Positions 3,467 to 47,050 of a stretch of 64,000 nt of DNA are shown in pieces. The stretch's first letter is position 1. Each line of letters starts with the position of its first letter. The notes beneath the pieces were generated by a model, which ran no database searches, had not been told where the DNA came from, and saw only the letters and a program-made list of their open reading frames with translations. Origin of the DNA: Geodermatophilaceae bacterium NBWT11 (GTDB lineage: Bacteria; Actinomycetota; Actinomycetes; Mycobacteriales; Geodermatophilaceae). The DNA lies in the NCBI GenBank assembly GCA_014218215.1, contig CP043652.1:2542001-2606000 (forward strand). Direction: 5' to 3'. The translations under genes and the position numbers were made by a program.

Positions 3467-3481
3467 GGCACTCGGCGTGAG
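3467..3481 (-). promoter_or_regulatory. Locus palindrome, copy 1
   Basis: GGCACTCGGCGTGAG matches the reverse complement of GTCACGCAGAGTGAC at 12 of 15 positions. It lies 24 bases upstream of the start codon of the minus-strand gene 2736. Confidence 0.4.
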
Positions 3482-3497
3482 TGAGGGCGCTCGCCTG

Positions 3498-3538
3498 GTG
3501 AACGCCCGATCAGGTGAACTGTTGGTCGGTTGTTCACC
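3498..3538. repeat. GGTGAAC direct repeats with inverted GTTCACC
   Basis: GGTGAAC occurs at 3498-3504 and 3513-3519 (15-base period), and its reverse complement GTTCACC at 3532-3538. The spacing would put the first two copies roughly on one helix face apart by about one and a half turns. This is a plausible operator cluster for the divergent promoters. Confidence 0.45.
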
Positions 3539-3799
3539 CGCTGTCAAGCTGGGTCGGCGCGCAGGTGCGTCGATGCCCCCTGACCCCGGTCTGCGCCGGC
3601 CACGTCCGTGCCCGACCACCCTCGGGGCGGCGGGAGCAGGGGCCTCCTGCGGCGGGCAGTTCGGCTGTCGGCCGCCGTGCGACCGGTGTCACTCCATAGT
3701 GCACCCCGGGTGGGGGACACTGAGGGTGATGATGATGCGTCAGTCAGTTGCGAGACCGTCCCGCTCCGGGTGGTCGGGAGACCGCAGGGGTGCGCTGTC

Positions 3800-4951
3800 G
3801 TGATCGCCGTGGAGGACGCCTCGGACGCGGCCGTACGCCACGCTCGGCTGCGCGTGCTGTTCGCGAGCCACACCCCGGAGAGCGGGGTCTTCCGGGTGGG
3901 CAGCCACCACCTGTCGCGGGAGTTCGCCCGGCAGGGGATGCAGGTCGGGCACATGTCCACTCCGCTGTCCCCGGTGAAGTTCCTGGGCCTCGGGAACCGG
4001 ATCGGCCTCCGTTCGCGGTTGTCGGCGACGCTCAGCGGCCCCACTGCGGACGCCGACGGGCGCATGTCCTCGGTCCCCTTCACCACGTTGCCGGTGCAGT
4101 TGACCGCTGGGTGGCCGGTCAACCTGGCGCTGCACACGGCCGTGCCGAGCCTCCGTAGGACGATCCGGGCGTCGGGTCTGGAGCGCCCGGACTTCCTGCT
4201 GATGGACCAGCCGATGTTCGCCGGCCTCGGTGCCATGGTGGGTGCCCGGACGACGGTCTACCGCCCGACCGACGTCTACACCGGTGAGCGCATGCGGGCG
4301 GCACAGGATCGTGCGCTCGCCGAGTCGGACGCCGTCGTCGCCACGTCGCAGGAGGTGCTCGACCGGCTGCCCTCCCGTGCTCGGGACCTGCCCAGCCTGG
4401 TGCTGCCGAACGGGGTGGACGCACCGTTCTTCCGTGGCGGACGAGCCAGGACCGTCGCCGAGGACGCCGTCGTCTACGTGGGCGCTCTGGACGACCGGCT
4501 GGACTGGGCCTGGTTGCGCGACCTGGCGAGATTGCGGCCACACGTGCGGTTCGACCTCTTCGGCCCTCCGCCGCCCGTCCGGCCCGACGGTCTGGGGGAG
4601 AACGTCCGGCTGCGCGGGGCGATCGACTACGCCCGGGTGCCGGCCGCCCTGGCTGGGTACCGGACCGCGTTGATGCCCTTCACCCCCGGGGTCACCAACA
4701 GCGGACGCAGCCCGATGAAGCTCTACGAGTACCTCGCTGCTGGACTCCGGGTGCTGGCCACCCCGCACTTCGCCGGCAGCAGCACCCCACCGCCGGGTGT
4801 GTTCGTGGCGGCGGATGCGAGCGCCGCTGCCGGCATCCTCCCCGGTCTGCTCGTGGCCGACGACCGCAACGAGGCCGGAGCCGAGGTGGCGGACGACCGC
4901 GACTGGAGCCACCGGTCGACGACGCTGTTGGACTTCCTGCTCACGCTGTGA
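3800..4951 (+). CDS. Glycosyltransferase, GT-B fold, TuaH-like
   Basis: About 383 residues with GT-B organisation. The N-terminal Rossmann strand LRVLFASHTPESGVF is followed by LLMDQPMFAGL and VYRPTDVY. The C-terminal domain has VYVGALDDRLDW, RLRGAIDYARVP and PMKLYEYLAAG, where the KLYEYLA block matches the nucleotide-sugar binding loop of the teichuronic-acid glycosyltransferase TuaH group. It probably adds a sugar to the lipid-linked intermediate on the cytoplasmic face. The frame is open to 3608, but GTG 3800 is chosen because AGGGG lies just upstream and conserved sequence starts shortly after it. The next gene, a beta-helix protein, is 126 bases downstream. Confidence 0.75.
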   Translation: MIAVEDASDAAVRHARLRVLFASHTPESGVFRVGSHHLSREFARQGMQVGHMSTPLSPVKFLGLGNRIGLRSRLSATLSGPTADADGRMSSVPFTTLPVQLTAGWPVNLALHTAVPSLRRTIRASGLERPDFLLMDQPMFAGLGAMVGARTTVYRPTDVYTGERMRAAQDRALAESDAVVATSQEVLDRLPSRARDLPSLVLPNGVDAPFFRGGRARTVAEDAVVYVGALDDRLDWAWLRDLARLRPHVRFDLFGPPPPVRPDGLGENVRLRGAIDYARVPAALAGYRTALMPFTPGVTNSGRSPMKLYEYLAAGLRVLATPHFAGSSTPPPGVFVAADASAAAGILPGLLVADDRNEAGAEVADDRDWSHRSTTLLDFLLTL

Positions 4952-4989
4952 CGTCTGGAGGCCCCACCCGTCGCCCCTTCGGGTGAGGA

Positions 4990-5008
4990 GGGGGCGCCTT
5001 CGGCCCCC
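4990..5008 (+). terminator. Possible hairpin terminator after glycosyltransferase 3800
   Basis: GGGGGC, a 7-base loop, then GCCCCC. There is no T-tract, as is common in high-GC genomes. A weaker CACCC...GGGTG hairpin precedes it. Confidence 0.35.
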
Positions 5009-5077
5009 AGCACCTCCAGTCCCACCGCTCCCACGTCGATGGGCACTCGAGAACACTCGAGTCCCAGGGAGCGCGTC

Positions 5078-6661: not shown

Positions 6662-6755
6662 CCGGGGCGGCGCATGGGATCCTCGTCCACGGTCCGGCGG
6701 GACGCGATGGGCCCGGCTGGGTCCATTCCGCTGGGCCGACGAGGAGGACGCAGCC

Positions 6756-7907: not shown

Positions 7908-7973
7908 CCCTCCGGCGTCACCCGTTGGGAGGTCGGGAGCACCGAGACGGTTTCGTAGACGGCTGCTGAGCTC

Positions 7974-7979
7974 TATCTT
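7974..7979 (+). promoter_or_regulatory. Putative -10 element upstream of methyltransferase 8063
   Basis: TATCTT (TANNNT) lies in the AT-richer part of the 155-base gap, with a weak TTTCGT 17 bases upstream as a possible -35. A diverged GTGAC-N5-GTCAC palindrome follows at 8035-8049. Confidence 0.35.
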
Positions 7980-8062
7980 CGCCTTTCGAGACCGGGCCGA
8001 CTCCTCCTCCGTCTGGGGACGGGAGCAGTACCCGGTGACTGAGGGTCACGAGGAGAGCACGC

Positions 8063-23034: not shown

Positions 23035-23435
23035 GGGTCCCCCTCTCGTCCTCTGCCACCGGTTCTTCCGAGGTCGGCACCAGGGTAGGCGTGCCAGGGG
23101 CGCCGGCTCGAGCTCGTTCAGGCGACATGGGTTGCAGGGGACGCCACGCCCGACATGACGGGAGTCACTCAGGTAGAGGTGTCGAGTCGCCCAGATCACT
23201 CTGGGTGGAGCCTCGGGGTGAGCACGCCCCCTGTCACTCGACCCAGAGTGACGATTTGTGCACGAAGCGTCTACGAGCGGCCCCGATCGTGGTCATCCAT
23301 CGGGTGACGATGCTCGCTTGCGGTGTCGTTCCGTGACGAGGGCAGATAGCTTGGGACCCGTCAGCGAGCCCAGCGTCGGGCCGGACCGGAGGGCACCTGC
23401 GTGCCCTGATCCCATGCCTTCGGGGGCGTTCAGAC
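23035..23435. promoter_or_regulatory. Divergent intergenic region with large inverted repeat
   Basis: 401 non-coding bases between flippase 21394 and glycosylphosphotransferase 23436. It contains an exact 11-bp inverted repeat (23196-23206 with 23241-23251), within which lies a tighter palindrome: GTCACTC, 6 bases, GAGTGAC at 23233-23252. TAGCTT at 23347-23352 is a possible -10 for the plus-strand gene. Parts are AT-richer than the flanking genes. Confidence 0.55.
23195..23252. promoter_or_regulatory. Locus palindrome, divergent pair (copies 2 and 3)
   Basis: The site at 23195-23209 matches the reverse of GTCACGCAGAGTGAC at 12 of 15 positions, and the site at 23238-23252 matches the forward motif at 11 of 15. 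Together they form the large inverted repeat of this region and could bind two regulator dimers. Confidence 0.5.
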
Positions 23436-24950
23436 TTGCTCTTCACCCAGGACCACCGGCCCAGTGGGCCCGCGCACCGGCGTCTCAACGCCCGAGCGGC
23501 CACCGCCCGACTCCGGGGCGAGGGCACCGACGCCCGCCGCGCGTGGCGGACGACCTACCGCCGCAGCATCGCGACCGGCGACGTCCTCGCCGCCACGGCC
23601 GCGACGGCCGTGAGCTACCTCTTCCACTTCGGTCCGGCTGCGCCGGTCACCGCGGTCTCCCAGCCGGCCGCCCGCTGGTTCGCGCTGCTCATGCCGGTCG
23701 TGTGGCTGCTCGTCATGGGGGCCTCCCGCTCCTACGAGGAGCGGTTCCTCTGGATCGGCCCCGAGGAGTACCGCCGGGTGTTCCGCGCAGCCCTCATGCT
23801 GCTCGCCGGCGCCGCGCTGGTGTCCTGGGCGCTGAAGCTGGACCTGGCCCGCGGGTTCGTCATGACGGCGATCCCGTTGGCCGCGGTCCTCACGCTGGCC
23901 CAGCGCTGGGTGCACCGCAAGATCCTGCACCGCCGTCGCACCGCCGGTGAGCACGTGCAGACGACGATCATCGTCGGCCACCGCAGCGCCGTCGCCGCGC
24001 TGCACGAGCAGATCGACCGCGAGGCCCACCACGGCTACCGCGTCATCGGCTGCCTCGTGCCCCCGGCGGTGGGCGGCACCGTCCCGCCGTCCTTCGACGG
24101 TCTGCCCGTCCTGGGTGACCTGTCGATGGTCGCCGAGGTCGTCAGCGACTACCAGGTCGACACCGTCGCCGTGCTGCCGTGCCCCGAGCTCGACGGTCCG
24201 GCGCTGCGCAGCCTGGGCTGGGAGCTCGAGTCCACCAAGGCCGAGCTGCTGCTCGCCCCGGCCGTCACCGAGGTCGTCGGCACCCGGGTGGCCATCCGCC
24301 CGGTGTCCGGCCTGCCCCTGCTGCACGTCGAGCGCCCCGAGTTCGGTGGGCCCCGCCGGCTGGCCAAGACCGCCTTCGACAAGGTGTCGGCCTCGCTGCT
24401 GCTGCTCGTCCTGCTGCCGGTCTTCGTCGCCATCATGATCGCGATCAAGGTGACGAGCCCCGGCCCGGTGTTCTACCGCCACGAGCGCGTGGGCCTGGAC
24501 GGTCAGCCGTTCCACGTCCTGAAGTTCCGCAGCATGGTGCCCGGTGCCGACCGCCAGGTCGACACGCTCTTCCTGCAGAACGAGGGCAACGACGTCCAGT
24601 TCAAGATGAAGAGCGACCCGCGGGTGACCGGGGTCGGTGCGTTCCTGCGCCGCTACTCCCTCGACGAGCTGCCGCAGCTGCTCAACGTCCTCGGCGGCAG
24701 CATGTCGCTGGTCGGCCCCCGCCCGCACGTGACGCGCGAGGTAGAGCAGTACGGCCACGACATGCGCCGCCGCCTGCTGGTCAAGCCGGGCATCACCGGC
24801 CTGTGGCAGGTCAGCGGCCGCTCGGACCTCTCGTGGGACGAGTCGGTGCGCATCGACGTCCGCTACGTGGAGAACTGGTCGCTGTCCTTCGACTTCATGA
24901 TCCTGGCGAAGACCGTCGGCGCCGTCGTCCGCAGCTCCGGGGCGTACTGA
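23436..24950 (+). CDS. Polyprenyl-phosphate glycosylphosphotransferase (WbaP/WcaJ type), first copy
   Basis: 504 residues. About four hydrophobic segments are followed by a CoA-binding-like fold ([18 protein letters not shown]), one more hydrophobic stretch ([20 protein letters not shown]) and the bacterial sugar transferase domain. Its signatures are [46 protein letters not shown] and [17 protein letters not shown]. The enzyme starts repeat-unit assembly by moving a sugar-1-phosphate from a nucleotide sugar to undecaprenyl phosphate at the cytoplasmic face. The TTG start lacks a clear ribosome binding site, so the exact N-terminus is uncertain. A 14-bp terminator hairpin follows. Confidence 0.88.
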
Positions 24951-25005: not shown

Positions 25006-25094
25006 CTGCGTCCTACCCAGGGTCACCACCCGGACGGGTGGAGTCGCCCGGCCGTGGACTACACACGGCACCCGGTCCTGCCGATGATCGGCTC

Positions 25095-26943: not shown

Positions 26944-28527
26944 ATGCTCGCGGGTTCAGGTGGGGGTACACCGGGCGGTTCGCGGTCTGCTGCGGCGCTC
27001 ACAGAGCGTGCGGTGTGGACGAGGACTGCGCGCCGCGCGGACCTGCGTGTCCTGACCACTCCCGTCACGCAGGTCCCGGGGACCCCGGCTCACGGGGCAC
27101 CCGCGGCGCCCCGTGCCCTGCACCCCCCGGTCGGCGGCACCCCGCCGTGGGCCCGCCGGTACCTGGCCGCCCTCGTGGGTGGCGACGTCCTCCTCGGAGC
27201 AGCAGCCGGTGCGGTGCTCGTGGGTGAGGTCATGGCCACCCCGCGGAGCGCTCTCCTCTGGGCCTGCCTGCTGCTCCCGGTGCTGTGGCCGGCGCACGTC
27301 GCGCTCGCTGGCGGTTACGCCGCCCGGGTCGCTGCCCTGGGCCGGGAGGAGCTCTCCCGGGTGCTGCGGGCCGGCCTGGCCGCCCTCGCCCTCGTCGGGT
27401 TCGCCTCCTACGCCTTCGAGCTGGAGCTCTCCCGCCGTCTCGTCGTCCTGGTCCTGCCCGCCCTGGTGCTGGCCTCCCTGGTGCTGCGCTACGCGGCCCG
27501 AGCACGGCTGCGGGCCCTACGGCGCTCCGGGCGGTGCACCAAGCGGGTGCTCCTCGTGGGCCGCGGGCAGGCCGTGCTGAGCCTGGCGGAGCGGCTGGCC
27601 GCCGATCCGTCCTCCGGTCTCGTCGTCGTCGGCGCCTGCGTCACCGACCCCGACCGGCGGCACGTGGCCGGCGTCACCGGCCTGCCGGTGGCCGGTCTCG
27701 CGGACGTCGCGGCGACCGCTGCCGACCTCGGCGTGGACACCGTCGCGGTGACCAGTGCCAGCGAGACCGCGGCCGAGTACCTGCGCCGCCTGTCCTGGCA
27801 GCTCGAGGGGTCGGGCCTGGAGCTGCTGGTGGCGCCCGGTCTGATCGAGGTGGCCGGTCCGCGGCTGCACATCCGCCCGTTCGACGGGCTGCCGCTCCTC
27901 GCCGTCGAGCAGCCCCGGTTCGAGGGCTGGCGGCGCGTGGTGAAGGCCCTGGTGGACCGCGGCCTGGCCCTCGCGGCCCTGGTCGCCCTCGGGCCGCTGC
28001 TGATGGTGCTGGCCGTGGCGGTGCGCTGCGACAGCCCCGGCCCGGTGTTCTTCCGCCAGGAGCGGGTGGGCAAGGACGGCCACACGTTCTCGATGATCAA
28101 GTTCCGCAGCATGGTCGTGGACGCCGAGGTGCAGCTGGCCCGCCTGCGCGAGACCAACGAGTCCGACGGGCTGCTCTTCAAGATGCGGGCCGACCCCCGG
28201 ATCACCCGCACGGGCCGGTGGCTCCGGCGCCTGTCCCTCGACGAGCTGCCCCAGCTCTTCAACGTCCTGGGCGGCTCGATGTCCCTGGTCGGCCCCCGAC
28301 CGCCCCTGCCGGTCGAGGTGGCCCGCTACGACGGCTCGATCACCCGACGGCTGCTGGTCAAGCCGGGCCTGACCGGCCTGTGGCAGATCAGCGGTCGGAG
28401 CGACCTGTCATGGGAGGAGTCGGTCCGCCTGGACCTGCGCTACGTGGAGAACTGGTCCCTGGCCATGGACGCCTCGATCCTCTGGCGGACCACCCGTGCG
28501 GTCCTCTCCTCCTCCGGCGCCTACTAG
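26944..28527 (+). CDS. Polyprenyl-phosphate glycosylphosphotransferase, second copy
   Basis: About 527 residues with the same layout as 23436: four N-terminal helices, a CoA-binding-like region (RVLLVGRGQAVLSLAERL), a helix, then the sugar transferase domain with [37 protein letters not shown] and [17 protein letters not shown]. The C-terminal halves are much closer than the N-terminal halves, so the two copies may share the lipid substrate but differ in sugar or regulation. ATG 26944 has GAGAGG 8 bases upstream; the frame is open to 26776, so a longer N-terminus is possible. It is followed by 28601, 29800 and 30576 in an apparent operon. Confidence 0.85.
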   Translation: MLAGSGGGTPGGSRSAAALTERAVWTRTARRADLRVLTTPVTQVPGTPAHGAPAAPRALHPPVGGTPPWARRYLAALVGGDVLLGAAAGAVLVGEVMATPRSALLWACLLLPVLWPAHVALAGGYAARVAALGREELSRVLRAGLAALALVGFASYAFELELSRRLVVLVLPALVLASLVLRYAARARLRALRRSGRCTKRVLLVGRGQAVLSLAERLAADPSSGLVVVGACVTDPDRRHVAGVTGLPVAGLADVAATAADLGVDTVAVTSASETAAEYLRRLSWQLEGSGLELLVAPGLIEVAGPRLHIRPFDGLPLLAVEQPRFEGWRRVVKALVDRGLALAALVALGPLLMVLAVAVRCDSPGPVFFRQERVGKDGHTFSMIKFRSMVVDAEVQLARLRETNESDGLLFKMRADPRITRTGRWLRRLSLDELPQLFNVLGGSMSLVGPRPPLPVEVARYDGSITRRLLVKPGLTGLWQISGRSDLSWEESVRLDLRYVENWSLAMDASILWRTTRAVLSSSGAY

Positions 28528-31300: not shown

Positions 31301-31315
31301 GTCACGCAGAGTCAT
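31301..31315 (+). promoter_or_regulatory. Locus palindrome, copy 5
   Basis: GTCACGCAGAGTCAT matches 13 of 15 positions of the motif, with the second half in direct orientation. Confidence 0.5.
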
Positions 31316-31393
31316 GGACCCGCACCTTTGCGGTCGCCTGACCTGCAACTTCACTCGATCGAGGCGCGCTCACCCCTGGTGTTCCCGCGTCCG

Positions 31394-31408
31394 GTCACGC
31401 ACAGTCAA
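31394..31408 (+). promoter_or_regulatory. Locus palindrome, copy 6
   Basis: GTCACGCACAGTCAA matches 12 of 15 positions. It starts 67 bases before the preferred TTG start of the LamG-PKD gene. Confidence 0.45.
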
Positions 31409-31460: not shown

Positions 31461-34400
31461 TTGCGCACCACAGCACTGTCCGGCACCTGGCGCATCGCCG
31501 CCGCGGGCGTCCTCTCCCTTCTCCTCCTGCTCGGCTCGTTGGCCGGCGGCGCCCTCCCGGCGCGCGCCGACTCCATGCCCGTGGCGGACATGACGACCGG
31601 GAAGACCGCGCCGACCACGGTGACCGCCGACGCCCTGCCGACCACGCAGATCAACGGCGTCGTGTGGGACCAGGCGGTCGTCGGGAACACCGTCTACGTC
31701 GCCGGCCGGTTCACCACCGCCCGGCCGGCCGGGGCTGCCGCGGGCACGAGTGAGGTGTCGCGCAACAACCTGCTCGCCTACGACCTCCGCACCGGGGTGC
31801 TGGTCTCGTCGTTCAACCCCAACCTGAACGCCCAGGCGTGGAGCCTGGCCACCAGCCCGGACGGGCGGACGCTGTACGTCGGCGGTGAGTTCACCCGGGT
31901 CGGTACGGCCACCCGGAACCGGATCGCGGCCTTCGACACCGCCACGGGCGCCCTCACCTCCTTCGCCCCGAGCGTCTCCGGCGTCGTGAAGGCCATCGCC
32001 GCCACCTCCTCAGCCGTCTACTTCGGCGGCACGGTCTCCGCCGTCGGCAGCACGAGCCGCAGCCGCCTGGCGGCCGTCTCGCCGGCGGGCACCCTGCTGC
32101 CGTGGGCCCCGGTCCCCGGCGTCGGCCCGACCGACGGCAACTCGCTGCCGAACAACCCCACCCGCAACGCGCAGACCAGCAACGAGGTCAAGTCCATCGT
32201 CGTGACCGGGGGCGGCAGCCAGGTCGTCGTCGCCGGACACTTCTACACGCTCAACAACCAGCCCGCCTCGGGCGTCGGGGCCCTCGACGGCGCCACCGGT
32301 GCCACCCGGCCCTTCGCCATGGGCACGATCGTGACCAACCAGGGCGTCAACTCCGCGGTCTACAGCCTCTCCACCGACGGCACGAACGTCTACGGCACCG
32401 GCTACGACTACTACGGCCCCGGCAACCTGGAGGGCTCCTTCTCCGCCGCTGCCGACGGCGGTGCCCTGCAGTGGGTCAACGACTGCCACGGCGACACCTA
32501 CTCCAGCGTCCCCTTCAACGGCGCGCTCTACATGGCCGGTCACCCGCACACCTGTGAGGCCATCGGCGGCTACCCCGAGCAGGACCCGCGGGTCAGCAAG
32601 TACGCCACCGCCGTCTCCTTGACCGCCGAGGGCACCAACGCCTGGGGCTTCAACGGTGCCCCGGCCCCCCAGCTGCTGCACTGGTACCCCGACCTCAACG
32701 TCGGCTCGGTCTCCGGGTCCTACCAGGCCGGCTGGGACGTCGCCGCCGCCGGTGACTACCTGCTCTACGGCGGGGAGTTCACCCGCGCCGGCAACACCGG
32801 CCAGCAGGGCCTGGTCCGCTTCGCGATGCCCACGGCCGCGCCGAACAAGGTCGGGCCCGTGTCCGACGCCGGCATCACCCCGACCGCGGTCTCGGTCGCC
32901 GCGGGGTCGGTCCGGGTCTCCTGGACCTCGGCCTACGACAACGACAACCAGCAGCTCACCTACCGCGTGACCCGGTCGGACAAGCCGAACGCCCCGGTCT
33001 ACGAGACGACGGCTCCCTCCAGCTGGTGGAACCGGCCGGCCCTGGGCTTCGTCGACCGGACCGTGGTCGCGGGGACGAACTACACCTACCGCGTGGCCGT
33101 CAGCGACCCCTTCGGGAACACCACCACCCGGGGCAGCGTCACGGTGCGGGCCTCCTCGGCCGCCCTGTCCGACTACTCGACCCGGGTGCTCGCCGACGGC
33201 GCCACCGGCTACTGGCCGCTGGAGTCGCTGACCGGCAGCACGAGCTACGACTACGCCGGACTGTCCGACGTCACCGTCGCGCCCGGTCTGACCGCGGCCG
33301 CCGGGTCCCCGACGGGCACCACCTCCCTGTCCGGTGACGGCAGCACCGCCGCCCGCGGCACGGCCGGGGCCACGGGCGCCCGCACGGTCGCTCCCGACAC
33401 GTTCAGCCTCGAGCTGTGGTTCAACACCACCACCACCGAGGGTGGCCGCCTGGCAGGCTTCGGCAACGCGGCCAACGGCGACAACGGCTCCTACGACCGT
33501 CACCTGTACCTCGACCGCCTGGGCGTCCTGCGCTTCGGCGTGTACCCCGGCAGCGTGCAGACGGTCAGCTCGCCGTCGGCGCTCAACGACGGGCGTTGGC
33601 ACCATGTGGTCGCCGAGCTCTCCCCGGCCGGCCAGGTCCTCTACGTGGACGGCGTGCGGGTCGGCGCCAACAGCCGGGCCACCACGGGCCAGCCCTACAC
33701 CGGCTTCTGGCAGGTCGGCGGCGGCAACATGGGCGGCTGGCTCGGCTCGGACGACTTCGAGTACACCGGTCAGCTGGCCCAGGTCGCCGTCTACCCGACC
33801 GCCCTGGACACCGCTGCGGTGCGAGCCCACTACACGGCCACCGGCCGGACCGTCGACGTCGTCGCGGCCCCGACCGACCCGTACGGTGCCGCTGTCGCCG
33901 CCGACGGGCCGACGACCTTCTGGCGCCTGGACGACGCGGCCGGCTCCGGGCGCGCCGCCGGTGTCAGCGAGAGCGGTGCCACCGGCACCTACACCGGGGA
34001 CGTCACCCGACGCACCCCCGGTGTGTCGCTGCCGGGCACCACGTCCTCGGCCATCGACCTGGACGGCCGCGGCGGCTACGTCGTCGCCGACCAGCGGGTG
34101 GCCAACCCGACCACCTTCTCGACGGAGGTCTGGTTCAACACCACCTCCACCCAGGGTGGACGCATCATCGGCCTGGGCAACAGCCAGGACGCCTGGAGCC
34201 AGAACTACGACCGCTTCGTCTACATGTTCAGCGACGGCCGGGTGCGGTTCGGGGTCTGGGCGCCGGGTGAGGCGGTCATCGACAGCCAGCGCGCCTACAA
34301 CGACGGGGACTGGCACCACGTGGTCGCCACCTTCGGCGCCGGCGGCATGGCCCTCTACGTCGACGGGGCCCTGGTCGGCACCAACACCAACACCTCGGTG

Positions 34401-37187
34401 GACGGCTACGACGGGTACTGGCGGCTGGGTTCGGACAACATCTGGGGCGGGGCAGCGACCGCGGCCTTCGACGGTCAGCTGGACGAGGCCGCGGTCTACG
34501 ACCGGGCACTCACCCAGCAGCAGGTGAGCGCGCACTTCGCGGCCGCCGCGCAGACGGCGACGGTCGCCCCGACCCGGCCGGCCGACGCCTACGGGGCTGC
34601 GGTGTACGACTCCAACCCCACCCTGTTCTGGCGGATGGACGACACCAGCGGCAGCGCGGCCGCGGCCGCGGCGCCCGCCGGTGGCCGTGGCACCTACGCC
34701 GGGGGTCCCGGTCTCGGGGCCACCGGCCCCCAGCTCGCCGGGACGTCCGCCAACCGGGCGGTCGCCTTCGACGGGACCGACGACGGGCTCTACAGCCGTA
34801 CTCCTGTCGCCAACCCGACCTCCTTCACCACGGAGCTGTGGTTCAGCACCACCTCCACCCGGGGCGGGAAGCTGATCGGGTTCGGGGACCGCCAGACCGG
34901 TCTGAGCGGCAACTACGACCGGCACGTCTACCTCGAACCGTCCGGCCAGGTGAGCTTCGGTGCCTACACGGGGCAGACGAACATCGTGACCACCCCGGCC
35001 GCGTACAACGACGGTCAGTGGCACCAGGTCGTGGCCTCCATGGGTGCCGACGGCATGCGGCTCTACGTCGACGGGGCCCTGGTCGGCTCCAACGGCAACA
35101 CCGGGGCGCAGGCCTACACCGGGTACTGGCGGGTCGGCGGTGACTCCAGCTGGTCCGGCGACCCCTACGTCGCCGCCACGATCGACGAGGTCGCCGTCTA
35201 CGACCGGCAGCTCTCGGCGACCGAGGTCAGCACCCACCACCGGGCCTCCGGTCTGGGTCCGGACGCCGTGCCGGTCTCCCGGTTCACCTCGACGGTGGAC
35301 GAGCTCGCCGTGGTCGTCGACGGCTCGACGTCCGCCGACGTGGAGGGCCCCATCGCCTCCTACGCCTGGGACTTCGGGGACGGCACCACGGCCACCGGCA
35401 CCCCGGTGTCCCACCGGTACGCCACCGCAGGTGACCACCAGGTGACGCTCACGGTCACCGACTCGAAGGGCCAGCGGGCCACCTCGACCCAGACGGTGAC
35501 CACCACCGCTCCCGTGCCGAACTCAGCACCCGTGGCGTCGTTCACCGACACCACGGACGCGCTGGCGGTCTCCCTCGACGGCACCGGCTCCTCCGACACC
35601 GACGGTGCCGTGGCCACCTGGGCCTGGGACTTCGGCGACGGTTCCACCGGGACGGGCGCGACGGTGAGCCACACCTACGCGGCCGAGGGCACCTTCGTCG
35701 TCCGGCTGACCGTGACCGACGACGACGGCGCCTCCACGACGGTGACCCGCTCGATCACGGTCACCGCACCGAACGAGGCGCCCACCGCCGTGGCGACGGT
35801 GACCCCGACCTTCCTGGCCGTGGCCGCCGACGGCCGGTCCTCGGTCGACCCGGACGGGTCGATCGCCTCCTGGGCGTGGGAGTTCGGCGACGGCGCCGTG
35901 GCCACCGGGTCGACCGCGACGCACACCTACTCCGGGGCCGGCACCTACACCGTGACCCTCACCGTCACCGACGACGAGGGTGCGACCGGTCGCACCACCA
36001 GCAGCGTGACCGTGGCACCGCAGCCGCCGCCGAACCAGGCGCCGACCGCGGCCTTCACGGCACCGGTCACCGACCGCACGGTGCAGGTGGACGGCAGGAC
36101 CTCCACCGACTCCGACGGCCAGGTCGCGACCTGGGCCTGGACCTTCGGGGACGGGGCCTCGGCCACCGGCGCCACCGCGTCGCACACCTACACCGCGGCG
36201 GGCACCTACACGGTGACCCTGACGGTCACCGACGACGACGGCGCCACCGCCGTCCTGAGTCGGGACGTCGTCGCCACGGACCCGCCCAACCAGGCGCCGA
36301 CCGCGGGTGCCAGCGTGCAGGGCGCCGGGCTGGACGTCACCGTGGACGGCCGCACCTCCGCTGACGCGGACGGCCGGGTCGTGGCGTGGGCCTGGACGTT
36401 CGGGGACGGGGCCTCGGCCACCGGTGCCACCGCGTCGCACACCTACGCCGCGGCGGGCACCTACACGGTGACCCTGACGGTCACCGACGACCGTGGGGCC
36501 ACCGGCTCCACGACCCGCTCGGTCACCGTCAGCCCGGCCGCCCCGGCCGTCCTCGCCTCCGACGCCTTCGGGCGGACGGTGACCGGGGGCCTGGGTCAGG
36601 CCGACACCGGTGGCGCATGGGTCGCCAGCTACGGCGCGGCCCGGTTGTCGGTGACGCCGGGGGTGGCCCAGCTGGCGCTGACGTCGCCGACCAACCAGAC
36701 CGGTGCCTACCTGGCGGGGGTCTCCTCCACGGCCGTGGACCTGCGGACGTCGGTGGCGCTGTCCGGCCCGGTCACCGGCGGTGGCACCACCGTCTACGTG
36801 GCAGGCCGCCGGGTGGGGCTGAACCAGGAGTACCGGCTGCGCCTGCGCTTCCAGTCCAACGGAGCGGTCGGGGTGGCCGTGACGCGGCTGGCCGGCTCCG
36901 CGACGGAGACCCTGATCGGCGGCGAGGTGACCCTGCCGGGTCGCTACACCGCGGGCCAGGTCCTCCAGGTGGACCTGCGGGTCTCCGGTTCGGGGACCAC
37001 CACGGTGAGCGGTTCGGTCTGGGCCGACGGGGCGACCGCTCCGGTGACGCCCACGGTGACCCGGACCGACACCACCGCGTCGCTGCAGGCGCCGGGCTCG
37101 GTGGGTCTCACGGCCTACCTGTCTGGTTCGGCGACCAACGGGACCGTCGCACGGTTCGGCGCACTCACGGTGACCGAGCTGCGCTGA
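31461..37187 (+). CDS. Giant secreted LamG/PKD multidomain surface protein (1908 residues)
   Basis: A signal peptide (about 1-37, ending ALPARADS) is followed by a propeller-like region (about 40-460) with repeats such as TLYVGGEFTRVG and AVYFGGTVSAVG. An Ig/FN3-like segment (463-563) comes next, then three LamG/concanavalin-like domains (about 570-795, 803-1027, 1037-1260; each has ELWFNTT/ELWFSTT and a WHHVVA/WHQVVA strand). Five PKD domains follow (about 1270-1693; WDFGDGT, HTYAAAGTYTVTLTVTDD). The last domain (1696-1908) is unnamed. LamG domains bind glycans and PKDs act as stalks, so it is probably an adhesin or matrix protein for the polymer made here. No LPXTG motif or C-terminal helix is present. 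TTG 31461 has GAAGGA upstream. Confidence 0.85.
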   Translation: MRTTALSGTWRIAAAGVLSLLLLLGSLAGGALPARADSMPVADMTTGKTAPTTVTADALPTTQINGVVWDQAVVGNTVYVAGRFTTARPAGAAAGTSEVSRNNLLAYDLRTGVLVSSFNPNLNAQAWSLATSPDGRTLYVGGEFTRVGTATRNRIAAFDTATGALTSFAPSVSGVVKAIAATSSAVYFGGTVSAVGSTSRSRLAAVSPAGTLLPWAPVPGVGPTDGNSLPNNPTRNAQTSNEVKSIVVTGGGSQVVVAGHFYTLNNQPASGVGALDGATGATRPFAMGTIVTNQGVNSAVYSLSTDGTNVYGTGYDYYGPGNLEGSFSAAADGGALQWVNDCHGDTYSSVPFNGALYMAGHPHTCEAIGGYPEQDPRVSKYATAVSLTAEGTNAWGFNGAPAPQLLHWYPDLNVGSVSGSYQAGWDVAAAGDYLLYGGEFTRAGNTGQQGLVRFAMPTAAPNKVGPVSDAGITPTAVSVAAGSVRVSWTSAYDNDNQQLTYRVTRSDKPNAPVYETTAPSSWWNRPALGFVDRTVVAGTNYTYRVAVSDPFGNTTTRGSVTVRASSAALSDYSTRVLADGATGYWPLESLTGSTSYDYAGLSDVTVAPGLTAAAGSPTGTTSLSGDGSTAARGTAGATGARTVAPDTFSLELWFNTTTTEGGRLAGFGNAANGDNGSYDRHLYLDRLGVLRFGVYPGSVQTVSSPSALNDGRWHHVVAELSPAGQVLYVDGVRVGANSRATTGQPYTGFWQVGGGNMGGWLGSDDFEYTGQLAQVAVYPTALDTAAVRAHYTATGRTVDVVAAPTDPYGAAVAADGPTTFWRLDDAAGSGRAAGVSESGATGTYTGDVTRRTPGVSLPGTTSSAIDLDGRGGYVVADQRVANPTTFSTEVWFNTTSTQGGRIIGLGNSQDAWSQNYDRFVYMFSDGRVRFGVWAPGEAVIDSQRAYNDGDWHHVVATFGAGGMALYVDGALVGTNTNTSVDGYDGYWRLGSDNIWGGAATAAFDGQLDEAAVYDRALTQQQVSAHFAAAAQTATVAPTRPADAYGAAVYDSNPTLFWRMDDTSGSAAAAAAPAGGRGTYAGGPGLGATGPQLAGTSANRAVAFDGTDDGLYSRTPVANPTSFTTELWFSTTSTRGGKLIGFGDRQTGLSGNYDRHVYLEPSGQVSFGAYTGQTNIVTTPAAYNDGQWHQVVASMGADGMRLYVDGALVGSNGNTGAQAYTGYWRVGGDSSWSGDPYVAATIDEVAVYDRQLSATEVSTHHRASGLGPDAVPVSRFTSTVDELAVVVDGSTSADVEGPIASYAWDFGDGTTATGTPVSHRYATAGDHQVTLTVTDSKGQRATSTQTVTTTAPVPNSAPVASFTDTTDALAVSLDGTGSSDTDGAVATWAWDFGDGSTGTGATVSHTYAAEGTFVVRLTVTDDDGASTTVTRSITVTAPNEAPTAVATVTPTFLAVAADGRSSVDPDGSIASWAWEFGDGAVATGSTATHTYSGAGTYTVTLTVTDDEGATGRTTSSVTVAPQPPPNQAPTAAFTAPVTDRTVQVDGRTSTDSDGQVATWAWTFGDGASATGATASHTYTAAGTYTVTLTVTDDDGATAVLSRDVVATDPPNQAPTAGASVQGAGLDVTVDGRTSADADGRVVAWAWTFGDGASATGATASHTYAAAGTYTVTLTVTDDRGATGSTTRSVTVSPAAPAVLASDAFGRTVTGGLGQADTGGAWVASYGAARLSVTPGVAQLALTSPTNQTGAYLAGVSSTAVDLRTSVALSGPVTGGGTTVYVAGRRVGLNQEYRLRLRFQSNGAVGVAVTRLAGSATETLIGGEVTLPGRYTAGQVLQVDLRVSGSGTTTVSGSVWADGATAPVTPTVTRTDTTASLQAPGSVGLTAYLSGSATNGTVARFGALTVTELR
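36132..36236 (+). repeat. PKD-encoding direct repeat, unit 1
   Basis: This 105-base segment recurs at 36387-36491, 255 bases on, with very few differences; both encode the WTFGDG...TLTVTDD core of PKD domains 4 and 5. Recombination could delete or duplicate a whole in-frame PKD domain of 85 codons. Confidence 0.7.
36387..36491 (+). repeat. PKD-encoding direct repeat, unit 2
   Basis: Second copy of the repeat at 36132-36236, in the same reading frame. Confidence 0.7.
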
Positions 37188-37241: not shown

Positions 37242-37296
37242 CCCGTCTCCGCTGTCCCCTGACCGGGTGACCGCGGGCAGGTGCCACTCGGACGGG

Positions 37297-37311
37297 GCTA
37301 CCGAGAGTGAC
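37297..37311 (+). promoter_or_regulatory. Locus palindrome, copy 7
   Basis: GCTACCGAGAGTGAC matches 11 of 15 positions. It lies in the 140-base gap between the terminator and the second LamG-PKD gene. Confidence 0.35.
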
Positions 37312-37359: not shown

Positions 37360-37374
37360 CTCACGGATGGTGAC
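37360..37374 (+). promoter_or_regulatory. Locus palindrome, copy 8, at the start of the second LamG-PKD gene
   Basis: CTCACGGATGGTGAC matches 11 of 15 positions and is a true inverted repeat (TCAC, 5 bases, GTGA). It ends 6 bases before the GTG start, so a bound protein would block translation initiation or a very short-leadered transcript. With the following TGAACG it resembles the copy at 46912. Confidence 0.4.
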
Positions 37375-37380: not shown

Positions 37381-40300
37381 GTGTCTTTCTCCTCGCGTCG
37401 GACGTGGCTCTCCCGCCTCCTGGCCGTGTCCGTCGTCGGCCTCGTCGTCGCGGCCACCCCGTCCATCGCGACCGCCGCCGAGCAGCCCTCGGCGGGCGCT
37501 CCGCCTGCCGCGGCGACCACGGTGGCCGCGGACGGACTCCCGACGGTCCAGATCGACGGCGTGGTCTGGTCCCAGACGGTCGTCGGCACCACCGTCTACG
37601 TTGCCGGGCGCTTCGCCAACGCGCGGCCTGCCGGCGCCGCACCGGGCACCTCCCTGGTGCCCCGGGCCAACCTGCTGGCCTACGACATCCGCACCGGCGT
37701 GCTCGTCCCCGGGTGGGCCCCGTCGCTGAACGCCCAGGCGTTGACGATCACCGCGTCCCCGGACGGGTCGCGCATCTACGTGGGCGGTGACTTCACCACC
37801 GTCGACGGCCAGACCGCCCGGCGCATCGCAGCCCTGGACCCGACGACCGGTGCTCTGGTCCCGGACTTCCGGCCGGCCGTGACGGCGTCCGTGCGGGCCA
37901 TCGTCGCCACCGCCGACACCGTGTACGTCGGCGGTGACTTCAACGCGGTGGGCAGCGCCTCGCGCCTGCGTCTGGCGGCGTTCGACCCGGCCGGGCAGCT
38001 CCTGCCGTGGGCCCCCGGCACCGGCGTCGGCCGCAACCGCGACGGCAGCGTCGCCGCCGGTGCCGGCGTGAGCGCGCTCGCCCTGGTCGGCGACCAGCTG
38101 GTCGTCGGCGGTCGGTTCGGCTCCATCAACGGCACGGCGACCAGCGGCGTGGGTGCGGTCTCGGCGACCACCGGGGAGGTCCGCCCCTTCGCGGTCGGGC
38201 AGCGCATCACCAACCAGGGTGACGACTCCGGCGTGACCAGCCTGACCACCGACGGCACCACCGTGTGGATCGGCGCCTACGACTTCTCCGGGCCGGGCAA
38301 CGCCGAGGGGGTCGTGGCCGCCCGGGTGGCCGACGGCTCGCTCGTGTGGGACGCGGACTGCCGCGGTGACACCTACTCCACCTTCCCCGTGGGGGGAGCG
38401 GTCTACGTCGCCGGCCACCCGCACGTCTGCAGCAACATCGGCGGGTTCCCCGAGGTGACCCCCCGGGTCAGCCGCTTCGGGATCGCCTACTCGCAGGCGA
38501 CCACCGGGACGGTGGGCACCGGGACGTGGGGCAACACGGCCTTCCGCGGTGCCCCCGCCCCCTCGGTGCTGGACTGGTACCCGACCATCACCCCCGGCAC
38601 CTTCACGGGGCAGGGCCAGGCCGGTTGGAGCGTCACCGGCACCTCGGAGTACGTGCTCTACGGCGGGGAGTTCCCCCGGGTGAACTCCGTCGGCCAACAG
38701 GGCCTCGTGCGGTTCGCCGTCCGATCGCTGGCACCGAACCGGATCGGCCCGGTGGCCGGGAGCCTGGCCACCCCCACCGTGACCGCAGGCGGGGCCGGCG
38801 TCCTCTCGGTCGGCGTCACCACGACGTCCGACAGGGACGACCGGAACCTGACCTACTCCCTGTACCGGGACGGTGACACGGCCACCCCGGTCGCCACCCA
38901 GGTCGTGGACTCGATCTTCACCACCCCCCGCACCGTCACCCTCCACGACCGGGGGCTGGCGCCGTCGTCGACGCACACCTACGTCGTCCGCGCCCAGGAC
39001 GCCTGGGGCAACACGGTCACCAGCCCGTCGTCGTCGGGCACGGTGAGTGCCGAGCCGCTGCCGTCGGCCTACACGCAGACCGTGCTGGCCGACGGCGCGA
39101 CCTCGGCCTGGCCACTGGGCTTCCTCACCGGTTCCACGAGCGGTGACGCCACCGGGGCCGCGCCCCTGACCGTCGGCTCGGGCGTGACCCGGCAGGCGAC
39201 CGGGGCGGTCGCCGGCGACGCCGGCGGGGCCTTCGCGCTCGGCGGCACCGCGTCCTCCCGGATGGTCGCCGGGGCTGCCCAGGGTGCCCGCAGCGCGCCG
39301 CAGACCTTCTCGCTGGAGTTGTGGTTCTCGACCACGGCGACCACGGGCGGGCGGCTGGCCGGGTTCGGCAACTCGGCCACCGGCAGCAACACCAGCTACG
39401 ACCGGCAGGTCTACCTCGACGCCGCCGGCCGGGTCCTCTTCGGCGTCTCGAGCGGGAGCCGGCAGGTGTTGGCCAGCCAGGCCGCCTACAACGACGGGGG
39501 ATGGCACCACGTCGTGGCCTCGCTCGGGCCACCGGGACCTCGCTCTGGGTGGACGGCGTCCTCGTCGGCACCGCACCCGCCGTGACGTCGGCTGCGGCCT
39601 ACGCCGGCTGGTGGCAGATCGGCGGCGGACCGCTGAGCAACTGGCCCAGCGCCGGCGCCACCGACCTCGTCGGCGCGGTCGACGCCGTCGCGGTGTACCC
39701 GACGGTGCTCGACCAGGCCACGGTGCGGGCCCACGTCGGGGCCGCCGGGGCGACCGGGCGGTGGACCTCGCCGCCCGCCGACCCCTACGGGGCCGCGGTG
39801 TTCGCCGACCGGCCGTCGCTGTCCTGGCGGCTGGACGAGTCGTCGGGCACCCGGGTCGCCGGTTCCCAGCCCGCCGGGGACGGCGGCACGGGCGTGCTCC
39901 TGGGCGGGCCGTCGCTGGGCGCGGCGGGTGCCACGGACACCCCCGGCCGGGCGGCGGGCACGGCCCTGGCCCTGGACGGCAGCAACGACGTCCTCGCCAC
40001 GGTGGCCTCGGCCGCGGCTCCGGGCACGTCCTCCCAGGAGCTGTGGTTCGCCACGACGACCACCCGCGGCGGCGGCCTGATCGGCTTCGGCAGTTCCCAG
40101 AGCGGGACGTCGAGCACCGCCGACCGGGTGCTCGCGATGCGCACGGACGGGCGACTGAGCTACACCGCCAGTTCGTCGCTCGTGAGCACCCTCACGGTCA
40201 CCTCGAGCTCGGCGTACAACGACGGGCGGTGGCACCACGCCGTCATCAGCACCGGGGCCGCCGGCACCGTGCTCTACGTCGACGGGCGGGCAGTGGCCAC

Positions 40301-44058: not shown

Positions 44059-45283
44059 GACTGCCCACCGCCTGGCTGCGCGGGACGTCGGCCGGGACGG
44101 CGACGTCCTCCCGGGTGCCCCGTTCGCCCGCCAGGGCGAGGGTCAGAAAGACCACCAGTGCGGGAGTGGCGTCGAACAACCCGCTCTCCAGGAGGCTGCG
44201 GACGACCACGAAGCAGAGCAGCCCCGCCGCGAGGGGCCACAGCTGCGGGGGCAGGGTGCGCAGGCCCCGCGCACACGCCACGACCCAGCCCGCCGCGACG
44301 AGCAGCCCGACGAGGCCCGCCTGCACGAAGACCGACACCCAGCTGCTGTCGAGCAGCTGCTCGTTCCACCACTGGCCGGCCACGGGGATGAGCTTGACCG
44401 AGAGTCCGGCCCCCATCGCCCACTGCCAGGCCGAGTCCGCCCAGTCCAGTGCGGCGGACCACGCGATGAAGCGGGAGTCCAGGGTGCTGTTGCCCGAGGC
44501 GTCGGTGCGCTCGGCGAAGGAGACCACCAGGTCGGTGGACGCCAGCACGAGCACCCCGGCCGTCACCGCGGCCCCCAGCCCGACCACGAGTCCCACCTGG
44601 GGGCGCCGCAGCCGGACGGCGGCGACCAGGACGGCGAGGAGGGCGACCGCCAGCGAGGTGCGGGAGCCGGTCAGCCACAGCACGCCGAGCGCAGCCGTTG
44701 CGACCACGGCGTGCGCGGGCCGGCCCTGCCCCAGGAGGGCGGGCCAGGCGGCACCCAGCAGGACGATGCCCGCCAGCAGCGCGATCTCGTTGGGGTTCAG
44801 CGGGGGGATGCCCCCGAAGAGACGTCCCTCGGCGATGCTGGGCAACCCCGTCAGGGCGGCGAGGCCCCCGACGATCCCGCAGGCCCAGACGGTGGCGACG
44901 AGCACCTCCTGGGCGCCCAGCGCGCGGACCAGCAGCCGGACGGTGACGGCGAGGAGGGCCACCCGTACGGCCACCACCGCGCTCGGGAGGAGCGTCCCGT
45001 GTTCGGCCGCGCCGAGCACGCTGGCGGTCAGCAGGACCGCCAGCGCCACGAGAGAGGCCGTACCCACCCGCCGCCCGGCGCCTCGCCGGGAATCGAGGAG
45101 CGCGGCCAGGCCGAGCGCCAGCAGGCTGACCAGTGCCTTGGCCGCGACGACCGGGTCGACCCCGCCGGCGAACACCTCGCCGCGCCGCCAGGCCACCGAC
45201 CCGGCGACGACCAGGAGGAGCGCCAGCAGACCGGGGGTGCCCGGCCGGGCGAGCAGGCGGGGCGTCGTGGCCGGCGTGGTCAC
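44051..45283 (-). CDS. O-antigen ligase/Wzy_C-family membrane protein
   Basis: 410 residues with about 11 helices. PPLNPNEIALLAGIVLL and LTGSRTSLAVALLAVLVA are the characteristic Wzy_C/WaaL-family motifs (N-x-N-x-x, GSRT), and a large external loop (about residues 235-300) contains DSRFIAWSAALDWA. Family members polymerise flipped repeats or ligate polymer to an acceptor outside the membrane; sequence alone does not separate these. It is the second polymerase-type gene of the locus and lies in an operon with its own co-polymerase. It overlaps neighbours by 4 and 8 bases. Confidence 0.82.
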   Translation of the reverse strand: MTTPATTPRLLARPGTPGLLALLLVVAGSVAWRRGEVFAGGVDPVVAAKALVSLLALGLAALLDSRRGAGRRVGTASLVALAVLLTASVLGAAEHGTLLPSAVVAVRVALLAVTVRLLVRALGAQEVLVATVWACGIVGGLAALTGLPSIAEGRLFGGIPPLNPNEIALLAGIVLLGAAWPALLGQGRPAHAVVATAALGVLWLTGSRTSLAVALLAVLVAAVRLRRPQVGLVVGLGAAVTAGVLVLASTDLVVSFAERTDASGNSTLDSRFIAWSAALDWADSAWQWAMGAGLSVKLIPVAGQWWNEQLLDSSWVSVFVQAGLVGLLVAAGWVVACARGLRTLPPQLWPLAAGLLCFVVVRSLLESGLFDATPALVVFLTLALAGERGTREDVAVPADVPRSQAVGSRG

Positions 45284-46761
45284 CGCAGGCGCGGGCGCGA
45301 GGGCGTGGAACGGCTGCCCGACGACTGCGCAGGCTGTCGGCGGGAGGGTGCCGTCGGTCGTCGGCCGCCCGATCCGTTCTTCTTCCCCGTGGTCGCCGCC
45401 GGGGGCGTCGCGGACGCCGGGGCGGGCTCGCGCTCACTGCTGGGCTCGACGCCCTCCCCGGCAGTGCTCGCCGCGCCCTGACGCTGGGACGCCGTCTCCG
45501 GGGTCAGAGGTGCCCAGGCCGTGTCCGTGGCCGACCGCTTCGGACTCGTGGACGACGCGCCGGTCGTGGTCGGGTCCCCCTCGGGCGGGAAGAAGCCCTG
45601 ATCGGCCGTTGCGGGACCGGCGGGGTCGGGAGCCGGTGCCTGGTGCTCCGTGGTCCCTCGGGTGGGCCGCCGCTGGCGACGGACGGGGCGGGTCAACAGC
45701 ATCGCCACCGTGGAGGCCTCGACGCCGTCGAGCACCTGCCCCAGCTCGAAGACGTCCACCCGGTGTGCGCTGCCCACGGGGCAGACGACGACCACACCGT
45801 CGCTGTCCCTGGCCTCGTCACGCCACCTGCTCAGGGCGGCGTCCGCCGGGACGACGCGGAACTCGATGTCGGGCTGCCCCGACGGGCCGTCGGTGGGCGA
45901 GCCGGGGGAGTGGCTCGTGGGGGCGCTGTAGACGGCGGACAGGCCTCGTGCACACAGGACCCGGATCAGGGAGGCGACCAGGTCGTCGACGGCTGCGCCG
46001 CCCGCGGCTGTCGGGGCGACCAGGACCACGCGCTGCGGCCCGTCCTGGGCCCGTCGCTCGATGCGCCGGGCCAGCACCTGCGCCGCCCGGTCCGCCGGCT
46101 CCTGGCGGGTGGGCGGAGCGACGACCTCGGGGGCCGTCGGACCCCAGGCCCCACGGGCGTCCTCCACCGACCACACCCGCCGGTCCCAGCGGTCCCGGAG
46201 CACGGCGGCGGCCAGTCCGGCCCCGGCTCCACAGACCAGCCCGAGCAACAGCAGCAGGGACACCTGCGGGCTGGAGGGGCTGGTGGGCACCACGGCGGGG
46301 TTGGTGACGCTCAGGGCGACGGGACTGGTGCCCGCGTCGGTGGTCTCCAGCCGGCTGACCGTCGAGCTGAACTCCTCGGCGACGGCATCGGCGATGCGGG
46401 CGGCGAGCTGGGGGTCGCCGTCCACGACGGAGATGTTGATCTGCGAGGTGTCGACCGGGTTGACGGCCGTGACCTGGGTGCGCAACGCGGTCAGCGACAG
46501 GTCCAGGTCCAGCTCGTCGAGGACCGGCTCGAGCACCTCGGCACTGCTGGCGACGTCGGGGTAGCTGCGCACCCGCTGCTGGACGAACTGCGAGCCGGCC
46601 GTGCCGTCCTGCGTGCTGGAGACGAACACCTGGGTGGTGGCGGTGTAGGCCGTGGGGGTGATCGCGGCGACGGTCCCCGCCAGGGCGAGCCCGATGACCA
46701 GGCACGCCGCCCACCACCGCCAGCGGCGCGTCAGCACCGCGGCGTACTCGCGCAGCTCCAC
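45280..46761 (-). CDS. Wzz-type polysaccharide co-polymerase with degenerate P-loop domain
   Basis: About 493 residues. The N-terminus VELREYAAVLTRRWRWW leads to helix 1 (about 17-36) and an external Wzz domain (TTQVFVSSTQDGTAGSQFVQ), then helix 2 (about 165-187) and a cytoplasmic domain. At the Walker A position (about 240-250) the sequence is VAPTAAGGAAVDD, with no GK[ST]; GVVVVCPVGSAHRVDVFELG corresponds to a later BY-kinase strand. A Ser/Thr/Pro/Arg-rich tail of about 130 residues has no tyrosines. Length control without kinase activity is the likely role. GTG 46761 has GGAG 6 bases upstream; the frame is open to 46947. Confidence 0.78.
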   Translation of the reverse strand: MELREYAAVLTRRWRWWAACLVIGLALAGTVAAITPTAYTATTQVFVSSTQDGTAGSQFVQQRVRSYPDVASSAEVLEPVLDELDLDLSLTALRTQVTAVNPVDTSQINISVVDGDPQLAARIADAVAEEFSSTVSRLETTDAGTSPVALSVTNPAVVPTSPSSPQVSLLLLLGLVCGAGAGLAAAVLRDRWDRRVWSVEDARGAWGPTAPEVVAPPTRQEPADRAAQVLARRIERRAQDGPQRVVLVAPTAAGGAAVDDLVASLIRVLCARGLSAVYSAPTSHSPGSPTDGPSGQPDIEFRVVPADAALSRWRDEARDSDGVVVVCPVGSAHRVDVFELGQVLDGVEASTVAMLLTRPVRRQRRPTRGTTEHQAPAPDPAGPATADQGFFPPEGDPTTTGASSTSPKRSATDTAWAPLTPETASQRQGAASTAGEGVEPSSEREPAPASATPPAATTGKKNGSGGRRPTAPSRRQPAQSSGSRSTPSRPRLR

Positions 46762-46911
46762 CTGGACTCCGTCCCCCTGGGGGACGCCGCGGGGTGTCCG
46801 CGGCGCCTCTGACCGCAAACGTACGTCGCAGACCCGCCCGCGGACGGCTCTCGAGCCGTCTCGCCACCCGGACGGGGGACGAGGTCGCCGGACCGCGCGG
46901 ACGGAGGACGT

Positions 46912-46926
46912 CTCACGCAGAGTGAC
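46912..46926 (+). promoter_or_regulatory. Locus palindrome, copy 9 (best match)
   Basis: CTCACGCAGAGTGAC matches 14 of 15 positions and has a clean TCAC-N5-GTGA inverted repeat. It lies 151 bases from one divergent start and 169 from the other. Confidence 0.55.
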
Positions 46927-47019
46927 TGAACGAGTCCGCGGTGTCATGCGGGTGCGAGCGCCTGGGCTGCATGTTCTCGCCGATGGGCCTCACACGTACG
47001 GGTGGAGGAGGTCGTCGTC

Positions 47020-47050
47020 GTGACACAGAGTGCAGAATCTGTCCTAGGGT
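47020..47050 (+). promoter_or_regulatory. Putative promoter of cytidylyltransferase 47095 overlapping motif copy 10
   Basis: GTGACACAGAGTGCA (47020-47034) matches 11 of 15 motif positions. It covers the possible -35 TGACAC (47021-47026), 18 bases before -10 TAGGGT (47045-47050). Confidence 0.5.

Follow-up and report, generated by a model that had tools for sequence, protein, structure and literature searches.

Control of exopolysaccharide genes by the second messenger cyclic di-GMP (c-di-GMP) is known from Gram-negative bacteria, e.g. through the regulators VpsT and FleQ, and the family Geodermatophilaceae is known from arid soils and rock. Here, we describe a short palindromic box that recurs in the polysaccharide locus of Geodermatophilaceae bacterium NBWT11 and compare it with the operators of BldD and MtrA. 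The analysed stretch of 64,000 nucleotides (C1:2542001-2606000, called the window throughout) belongs to a genome that consists of a single contig with 4,594,226 bases. In the available part of PMC4151990 the BldD box is given as TNAC(N)5GTNA and the c-di-GMP signature of the protein as RXD-X8-RXXD. BldD represses developmental targets in Streptomyces coelicolor, and for simpler actinomycetes the accessible text of the same review gives conjecture only (PMC4255298). The MtrA consensus of S. coelicolor has N6 between its GTNAC cores and its sites are direct repeats, with one site, at bldD, showing a gap one nucleotide shorter than the rest (PMC5650626, accessible part). In Actinoplanes missouriensis the regulator TcrA was tested and does not control four exopolysaccharide clusters; BldD is named once in the available portion of that paper, in the reference list (PMC13390465). 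Among the matches listed in a literature search by title and abstract, no paper ties BldD or c-di-GMP to polysaccharide genes in Geodermatophilaceae.

We consider the repeated motif a predicted BldD operator and assign a probability of about 0.7 to the reading that BldD together with c-di-GMP represses the coat genes and that an activator at a second palindrome (E2, consensus CACCCGATCGGGTG) drives them. BldD, a member of the XRE family, would dimerise on tetrameric c-di-GMP. At high c-di-GMP its dimers would occupy boxes at the promoters for the sugar transferases, the LamG/PKD surface proteins and the cytidylyltransferase and block RNA polymerase there, whereby polymer and surface proteins would be switched jointly; at falling c-di-GMP BldD would leave and the activator on E2 near -60 would drive the genes. 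The predicted identity of the box rests on its consensus and half-site spacing. The data further show its placement in promoters, the conservation in the family, a single BldD with the c-di-GMP signature, boxes over the presumed core promoter of g33 and g22 and the geometry between E2 and box, whereas binding, repression rather than activation, a response to c-di-GMP in this organism and the existence of the activator are inferred.

Compared with the BldD-(c-di-GMP) regulon of Streptomyces, the locus shares the box consensus and spacing, a single orthologous BldD with RXD-X8-RXXD, boxes before bldD and the presence of GGDEF proteins. In contrast with that regulon, the boxes found here belong to a polysaccharide locus and to LamG/PKD genes as targets (sporulation targets lay outside the comparison), and they stand at a fixed distance from a second palindrome. 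At the cytidylyltransferase gene g33 boxes were seen only in Geodermatophilaceae. With VpsT- and FleQ-type systems it would share second-messenger control of polymer transcription, but the protein family is another one and the predicted sign is reversed, with repression at high c-di-GMP. The exopolysaccharide clusters of A. missouriensis are comparable as actinobacterial polysaccharide clusters with developmental timing (PMC13390465, in its available part). Operators that occur family-wide allow a direct test of whether c-di-GMP via BldD times the production of polysaccharide coat and surface proteins in Geodermatophilaceae, and E2 would be a sign that a further regulator acts on these genes.

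The locus extends over about 1.5-47 kb of the window and contains flippases, glycosyltransferases, an oligosaccharide polymerase match (g10), the sugar transferases g19 and g22, the chain length determinant g32, LamG/PKD proteins (g26 and the frame at 39321) and g33. All divisions into intergenic and coding DNA are based on our own codon-usage gene caller. The initial annotation had described an imperfect 15-bp palindrome in the non-coding gaps of this locus, and this claim stands in part. The sequences it gave are present and all 11 sites listed are intergenic, but the raw motif count does not hold, as the window has 6 matches with at most three mismatches where 4.43 are expected, and 6 or more also turn up in 29 of 100 shuffles. 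Since the 15-mer count alone is not significant, raw counting was replaced by the published consensus and by controls. The sequence GTCACGCAGAGTGAC matches TNAC(N)5GTNA, and TNACNCWGNGTNA is what we take to be the longer form of the BldD box, which reportedly reads nTnACnCWGnGTnAn and is attributed by others to den Hengst (2010).

Perfect copies of TNACNCWGNGTNA are found at 11 places of the genome (reversed pattern: 1), two of them inside the polysaccharide locus; annotation outside the window covered the other nine, seven of which lie between genes. Across nine genomes of the genus, the own one included, each holds 7-15 perfect boxes against 0-2 for the reversed pattern. With at most one mismatch, the threshold for all box counts below unless stated otherwise, the window has 10 places (5.69 expected; 6 of 100 shuffles reach 10), and nine of these are intergenic in a window with only 10.3% intergenic DNA. 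For 179 symmetric scrambles of TNACNCWGNGTNA the mean is 0.6 intergenic places and a single one, TCACNNWNNGTGA, which is a sub-form of the box, reaches 9. In a comparison of hit densities set beforehand, a 400-kb sample of the genome (20 stretches, 20 kb each) gave five places in its 31,507 intergenic bases and 15 in coding DNA, against nine in the 6,894 intergenic bases of the window; only 2 of 122 background promoters carry a box. At two mismatches the window count falls to chance level (73 versus 74.6 expected). The signal of the repeat lies in its fixed letters and its location. An origin of the copies by chance or by the composition of intergenic DNA would fit the raw 15-mer count and the two-mismatch count, neither of which exceeds the shuffles, but the enrichment is absent from scrambles (save TCACNNWNNGTGA), coding DNA, background intergenic DNA and background promoters; this explanation is refuted at the level of the consensus and retains a negligible probability.

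Scored with a matrix built from relatives with the window left out (its sites were preselected at up to one mismatch, which in part accounts for how sharp it is), 13 of the 14 best places of the window lie between genes. Ten of the 11 sites of the initial annotation score at least 11.6 bits and the one at 3467 fails with 8.1 bits. The supposedly weaker form at 8035 proved to be strong with 15.7 bits, and the 12/15 match ascribed to 23195 is not reached. Sites at 3716, 25012, 26917, 26998 and 37184, with scores of 9.9-12.7 bits, had been missed. Spacings of 43, 63, 83, 93 and 108 bp between boxes of the window make a helical phasing tempting, but with 41 distinct spacings taken together the idea finds no support (resultant 0.16-0.27 at periods of 10-11).

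For conservation, 21 relatives (529 kb, 51.8 kb intergenic) were selected by us from genomes with g22 and g33 on one contig. They contain 82 intergenic and 23 coding boxes (105 in total), and all 16 perfect ones are intergenic; the mean of the 179 scrambles is 5.1 intergenic places and again only TCACNNWNNGTGA (with 108) reaches 82. The sites sit mostly before the sugar transferase g22, LamG/PKD genes and g33. Counted by promoter, with those of the window included, a box precedes 23 of 31 g26-like LamG/PKD genes, 14 of 22 g22, 17 of 20 g33, 7 of 20 g32 and 2 of 6 g27 genes. The proposal that polymer and LamG genes share one regulator is thus supported as a prediction, as sites lie upstream of both here and in relatives. 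The two tests that the initial annotation had named as able to refute it, hit density (here against the 400-kb sample) and conservation in relatives, did not do so. At g33, 25 of 30 loci have a box within 250 bp upstream (10 perfect) and none in the first 250 coding bases, with a scramble mean of 1.1; at g22 the box is found within 500 bp upstream in 19 of 30 loci (four perfect) and in coding DNA in one, with a scramble mean of 1.5.

How far the link reaches was followed at the g33 promoter in named genomes (best 80 of 552 relatives; three loci, L216-L218, repeat L012-L014, so these counts overlap with those of the 30 loci). There, 25 of 32 Geodermatophilaceae-like loci, three of which are metagenome bins with other labels, carry the box, and one scramble reaches 26. 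It occurs in none of 10 Cellulomonas-type and other Micrococcales loci, in neither of two from Nakamurella and in one of 36 mostly Streptomyces loci (1/48 in total), and an order-level search found it in 2 of 18 loci, where scrambles average 0.7 and go up to 3. At the g33 promoter the box link is therefore seen in Geodermatophilaceae and is absent above chance in the outgroups tested. The nearest named relatives of g33 within the same best 80 of 552 are Klenkia brasiliensis, K. taihuensis (Klenkia being a genus within Geodermatophilaceae) and a Modestobacter isolate, with 88% each. Close relatives of g33 (E <= 1e-50) are present in 34 of the 57 family genomes searched, the own one included, and in 5 of 9 in the genus, which means that the polysaccharide locus is not universal. 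One genome of the genus has no close g33 but does have a perfect box, TCACTCTGCGTGA, at G003:C20:149617. Another sugar transferase is matched there on the minus strand (G003:C20:147972-149312), and the box lies 305 bp upstream of where this match starts. A further perfect box lies between a TetR-type regulator gene and a gene of glycosyl hydrolase family 6 (L002, 2001-2013).

Direct and inverted copies, both described in the initial annotation, are equally frequent among 50 intact sites (25 and 25), which is expected if the letter in which they differ is the N of the BldD consensus. The same annotation had pointed to MtrA-type sites. MtrA or another response regulator of the OmpR type on GTNAC repeats would account for the 25 direct copies among these 50, and one published MtrA site, at bldD, has a gap shorter by one nucleotide (PMC5650626, part available); N6 pairs, too, are denser in intergenic DNA (13 in 51.8 kb) than in coding DNA (7 in 477 kb). 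The boxes share with MtrA sites of Streptomyces and Mycobacterium the GTNAC half-sites and, in some copies, a resemblance to direct repeats. Nevertheless, they are mostly of N5 and not of N6 type and inverted as often as direct. Intergenic pairs of TNAC/GTNA half-sites at N5 outnumber those at N6 by 83 to 13 in the relatives and by 8 to 0 in the window (N4: 1), and GTNAC-N6-GTNAC occurs nowhere in the window and twice in the relatives' intergenic DNA, against 2 and 19 for the N5 version. As the N5 spacing prevails, BldD is favoured and control by MtrA appears very improbable.

The genome encodes one protein with a BldD C-terminal domain (single PF21179 match), about 1.4 Mb from the locus, and the assumption of the initial annotation that one dimeric regulator encoded elsewhere acts on all sites fits it as a prediction. 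This protein reaches 287.9 bits for the NCBIfam equivalog NF050110 (cut-off 250) and matches solved BldD-type domains, its DNA-binding domain being identical to chain 2ewt in 58 of 71 positions. Its translation (L001) carries RHD-YNGKVLSI-RAED and conforms to RXD-X8-RXXD. Orthologues are present in 55 of 57 family genomes, and the remaining two genomes are incomplete. Upstream of bldD itself a box is found in 20 of 30 loci, in none at the coding start (scramble mean 0.8; 0 of 179 reach 20); in front of the match to the own bldD, at 41 and 64 bp, lie boxes with one and two mismatches, 23 bp apart (L001, 2003-2038). Of GGDEF matches the genome has 27, and 5 of the 27 fetched loci have a box, with no pattern seen. 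A motif does not name its protein, and the boxes might be read by another XRE-family or an unrelated dimeric regulator with BldD-like half-sites; TNAC/GTNA half-sites with N8 spacing, the form of E2, occur in 25 cases, so related readers may exist. The single BldD-like C-terminal domain, the identity with 2ewt and the boxes upstream of bldD speak against this view, which we regard as improbable.

The direction of control was judged from promoter geometry. In g33 promoters TANNNT follows exactly 11 nt after the box at 13 of 37 sites (0.09 expected), and in g22 promoters TTGAC precedes it by 12-13 nt at 12 of 45 sites. At g33 the box would accordingly lie over the presumed -35, and at g22 over the spacer and -10, which is presumed to be the position of a repressor. 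In the opposite scheme BldD binds the boxes as an activator of the locus, or acts differently from promoter to promoter, and the output of polysaccharide and adhesin goes up at high c-di-GMP, as it does in many Gram-negative bacteria. It would agree with the many promoters whose second box is away from the presumed core promoter (43-108 bp in the window) and with LamG promoters that lack the geometry between box and core promoter. In addition, overexpression of bldD in S. clavuligerus raised bldN, bldM and chaplin-related expression (PMC13102240, in its accessible part). A dimer bound over the presumed -35 or the spacer and -10, as at g33 and g22, should however exclude polymerase, and the S. 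coelicolor developmental targets are repressed (PMC4255298, accessible text); activation by BldD is thus rated as unlikely.

The palindrome E2 was first found in g33 promoters. A matrix from 28 g33 loci, with the window excluded, was scanned over the relatives' 56 promoters of g22, g26 and g27, and E2 was located 29-31 or 41-44 bp before the box in 33 of them (background 0/122), where random placement gives a mean of 4.6 and a maximum of 16 in 2000. The distance of 43 bp occurs in 23 of 133 pairs; a second peak with E2 51 bp after the box (10/133) probably arises from the upstream member of box pairs. In the window E2 precedes the box by 43 bp at g22 and g26, 42 bp at g27 and 30 bp at g33, and a faint copy is seen at 42 bp at g18. 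By itself the palindrome is not specific, as its pattern with one mismatch is found 57 times genome-wide and the reversed pattern 46 times, and scores of at least 6 are reached in 34 of 122 background promoters; the claim for E2 therefore depends on its constant spacing from the box. Judged from the promoter offsets, E2 stands near -60, about equidistant from the presumed -35 at g33 and g22. Such a position is typical of activators. In a wider and still tentative proposal, which we hold to be possible rather than probable, E2 and a BldD box, spaced at a constant 30 or 43 bp, may form a composite promoter module of Geodermatophilaceae through which c-di-GMP would act with reversed sign on polymer genes, LamG/PKD adhesin genes and perhaps those for pili, BldD shutting the coat off and the E2 activator turning it on; the regulon would then have been rewired from sporulation to the coat.

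E2 was also observed at other places. A perfect copy, CACCCGAACGGGTG, lies between g33 and g34 (window 47590-47603) with no BldD box called alongside. Upstream of a type II/IV secretion ATPase (T2SSE) an E2-like palindrome and a BldD box of 13.9 bits start 15 bp apart (L214, 1533-1560), hinting that pilus or secretion genes may share the same control. E2 together with two weak BldD boxes precedes a Ser/Thr/Pro-rich repeat stretch (recognised by eye) in a called gene without a Pfam match (L215, 1465-1600). Intergenic copies before a pair of response-regulator receiver genes (L207, 1496) and before a histidine-kinase-like gene (L210, 1480) are possible clues to the pathway of E2.

Several points weigh against repression by BldD and activation through E2. 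Elsewhere the usual theme is that high c-di-GMP raises polysaccharide, which is the opposite sign. Neither TANNNT nor TTGAC is found at a common offset for 57 g26 or 11 g27 boxes, which leaves the LamG promoters without support for a repressor position; the geometry being confined to g33 and g22, repression is read from these two only. The -10 of g22 is weak, overlaps the end of the box and was placed by eye from a spacing of 17-18 nt. The set of E2 distances was picked after the promoter-offset analysis and on overlapping promoters, so the distance test is not fully independent. The scramble TCACNNWNNGTGA equals the box at g33 (25/30) and surpasses it at g22 (25 versus 19) and in the relatives' intergenic DNA (108 versus 82), which suggests that the inner C..G of the longer pattern may matter less than the outer letters. 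Finally, several boxes of the window have one or two mismatches and 5 of 30 g33 orthologues lack a box; two of these five belong to the window's own genus and have a two-mismatch box at the same place.

Table. Predicted boxes, E2 palindromes, promoter element and genes of the polysaccharide locus (positions in the window; scores in bits)
Feature	Position	Strand	Score	Remark
BldD box, candidate	3717..3729		12.7	2 mismatches; gap g4-g5
BldD box	8036..8048		15.7	1 mismatch; immediately upstream of methyltransferase g8
BldD box	23196..23208		14.3	1 mismatch; between divergent g18 (flippase) and g19 (sugar transferase)
BldD box	23239..23251		12.4	1 mismatch; between g18 and g19
g19	23436..24950	+		exopolysaccharide polyprenyl glycosylphosphotransferase; start uncertain
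BldD box	25013..25025		10.2	1 mismatch; gap after g19, beside E2-like palindrome at 25027
E2	26792..26805		17.0	43 bp before g22 box
BldD box	26835..26847		16.3	1 mismatch; upstream of sugar transferase g22
BldD box, second, weaker	26918..26930		10.9	2 mismatches; upstream of g22
g22	27013..28527	+		exopolysaccharide polyprenyl glycosylphosphotransferase; start uncertain
BldD box	31302..31314		20.6	perfect; upstream of LamG/PKD gene g26
E2, weak	31352..31365		8.3	43 bp before proximal g26 box
BldD box	31395..31407		16.3	1 mismatch; proximal to g26
g26	31461..37187	+		1908-aa protein with Laminin_G_3 and PKD domains
E2	37256..37269		9.9	42 bp before g27 box
BldD box, weak	37298..37310		11.6	2 mismatches; upstream of g27
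BldD box, weak	37361..37373		12.8	2 mismatches; near g27 start
g27	37381..39585	+		marginal DUF5122 propeller match
g32	45280..46761	-		Wzz-type chain length determinant
BldD box	46913..46925		19.6	perfect; between divergent g32 (Wzz) and g33 (cytidylyltransferase)
E2	46991..47004		15.4	30 bp before g33 box
BldD box	47021..47033		12.5	1 mismatch; over presumed -35 of g33
Presumed -10 of g33	47045..47050	+		TAGGGT, 11 nt after box; from window sequence and offset-11 TANNNT after 13 of 37 g33 boxes
g33	47095..47556	+		cytidylyltransferase-family gene, TagD-like, under TIGR01518 cut-off

By our gene calls, the longest gap of the window with no called gene extends over 984 bp (51414-52397). The two sugar transferases g19 and g22 show 47% identity, and the gap upstream of each contains two boxes.

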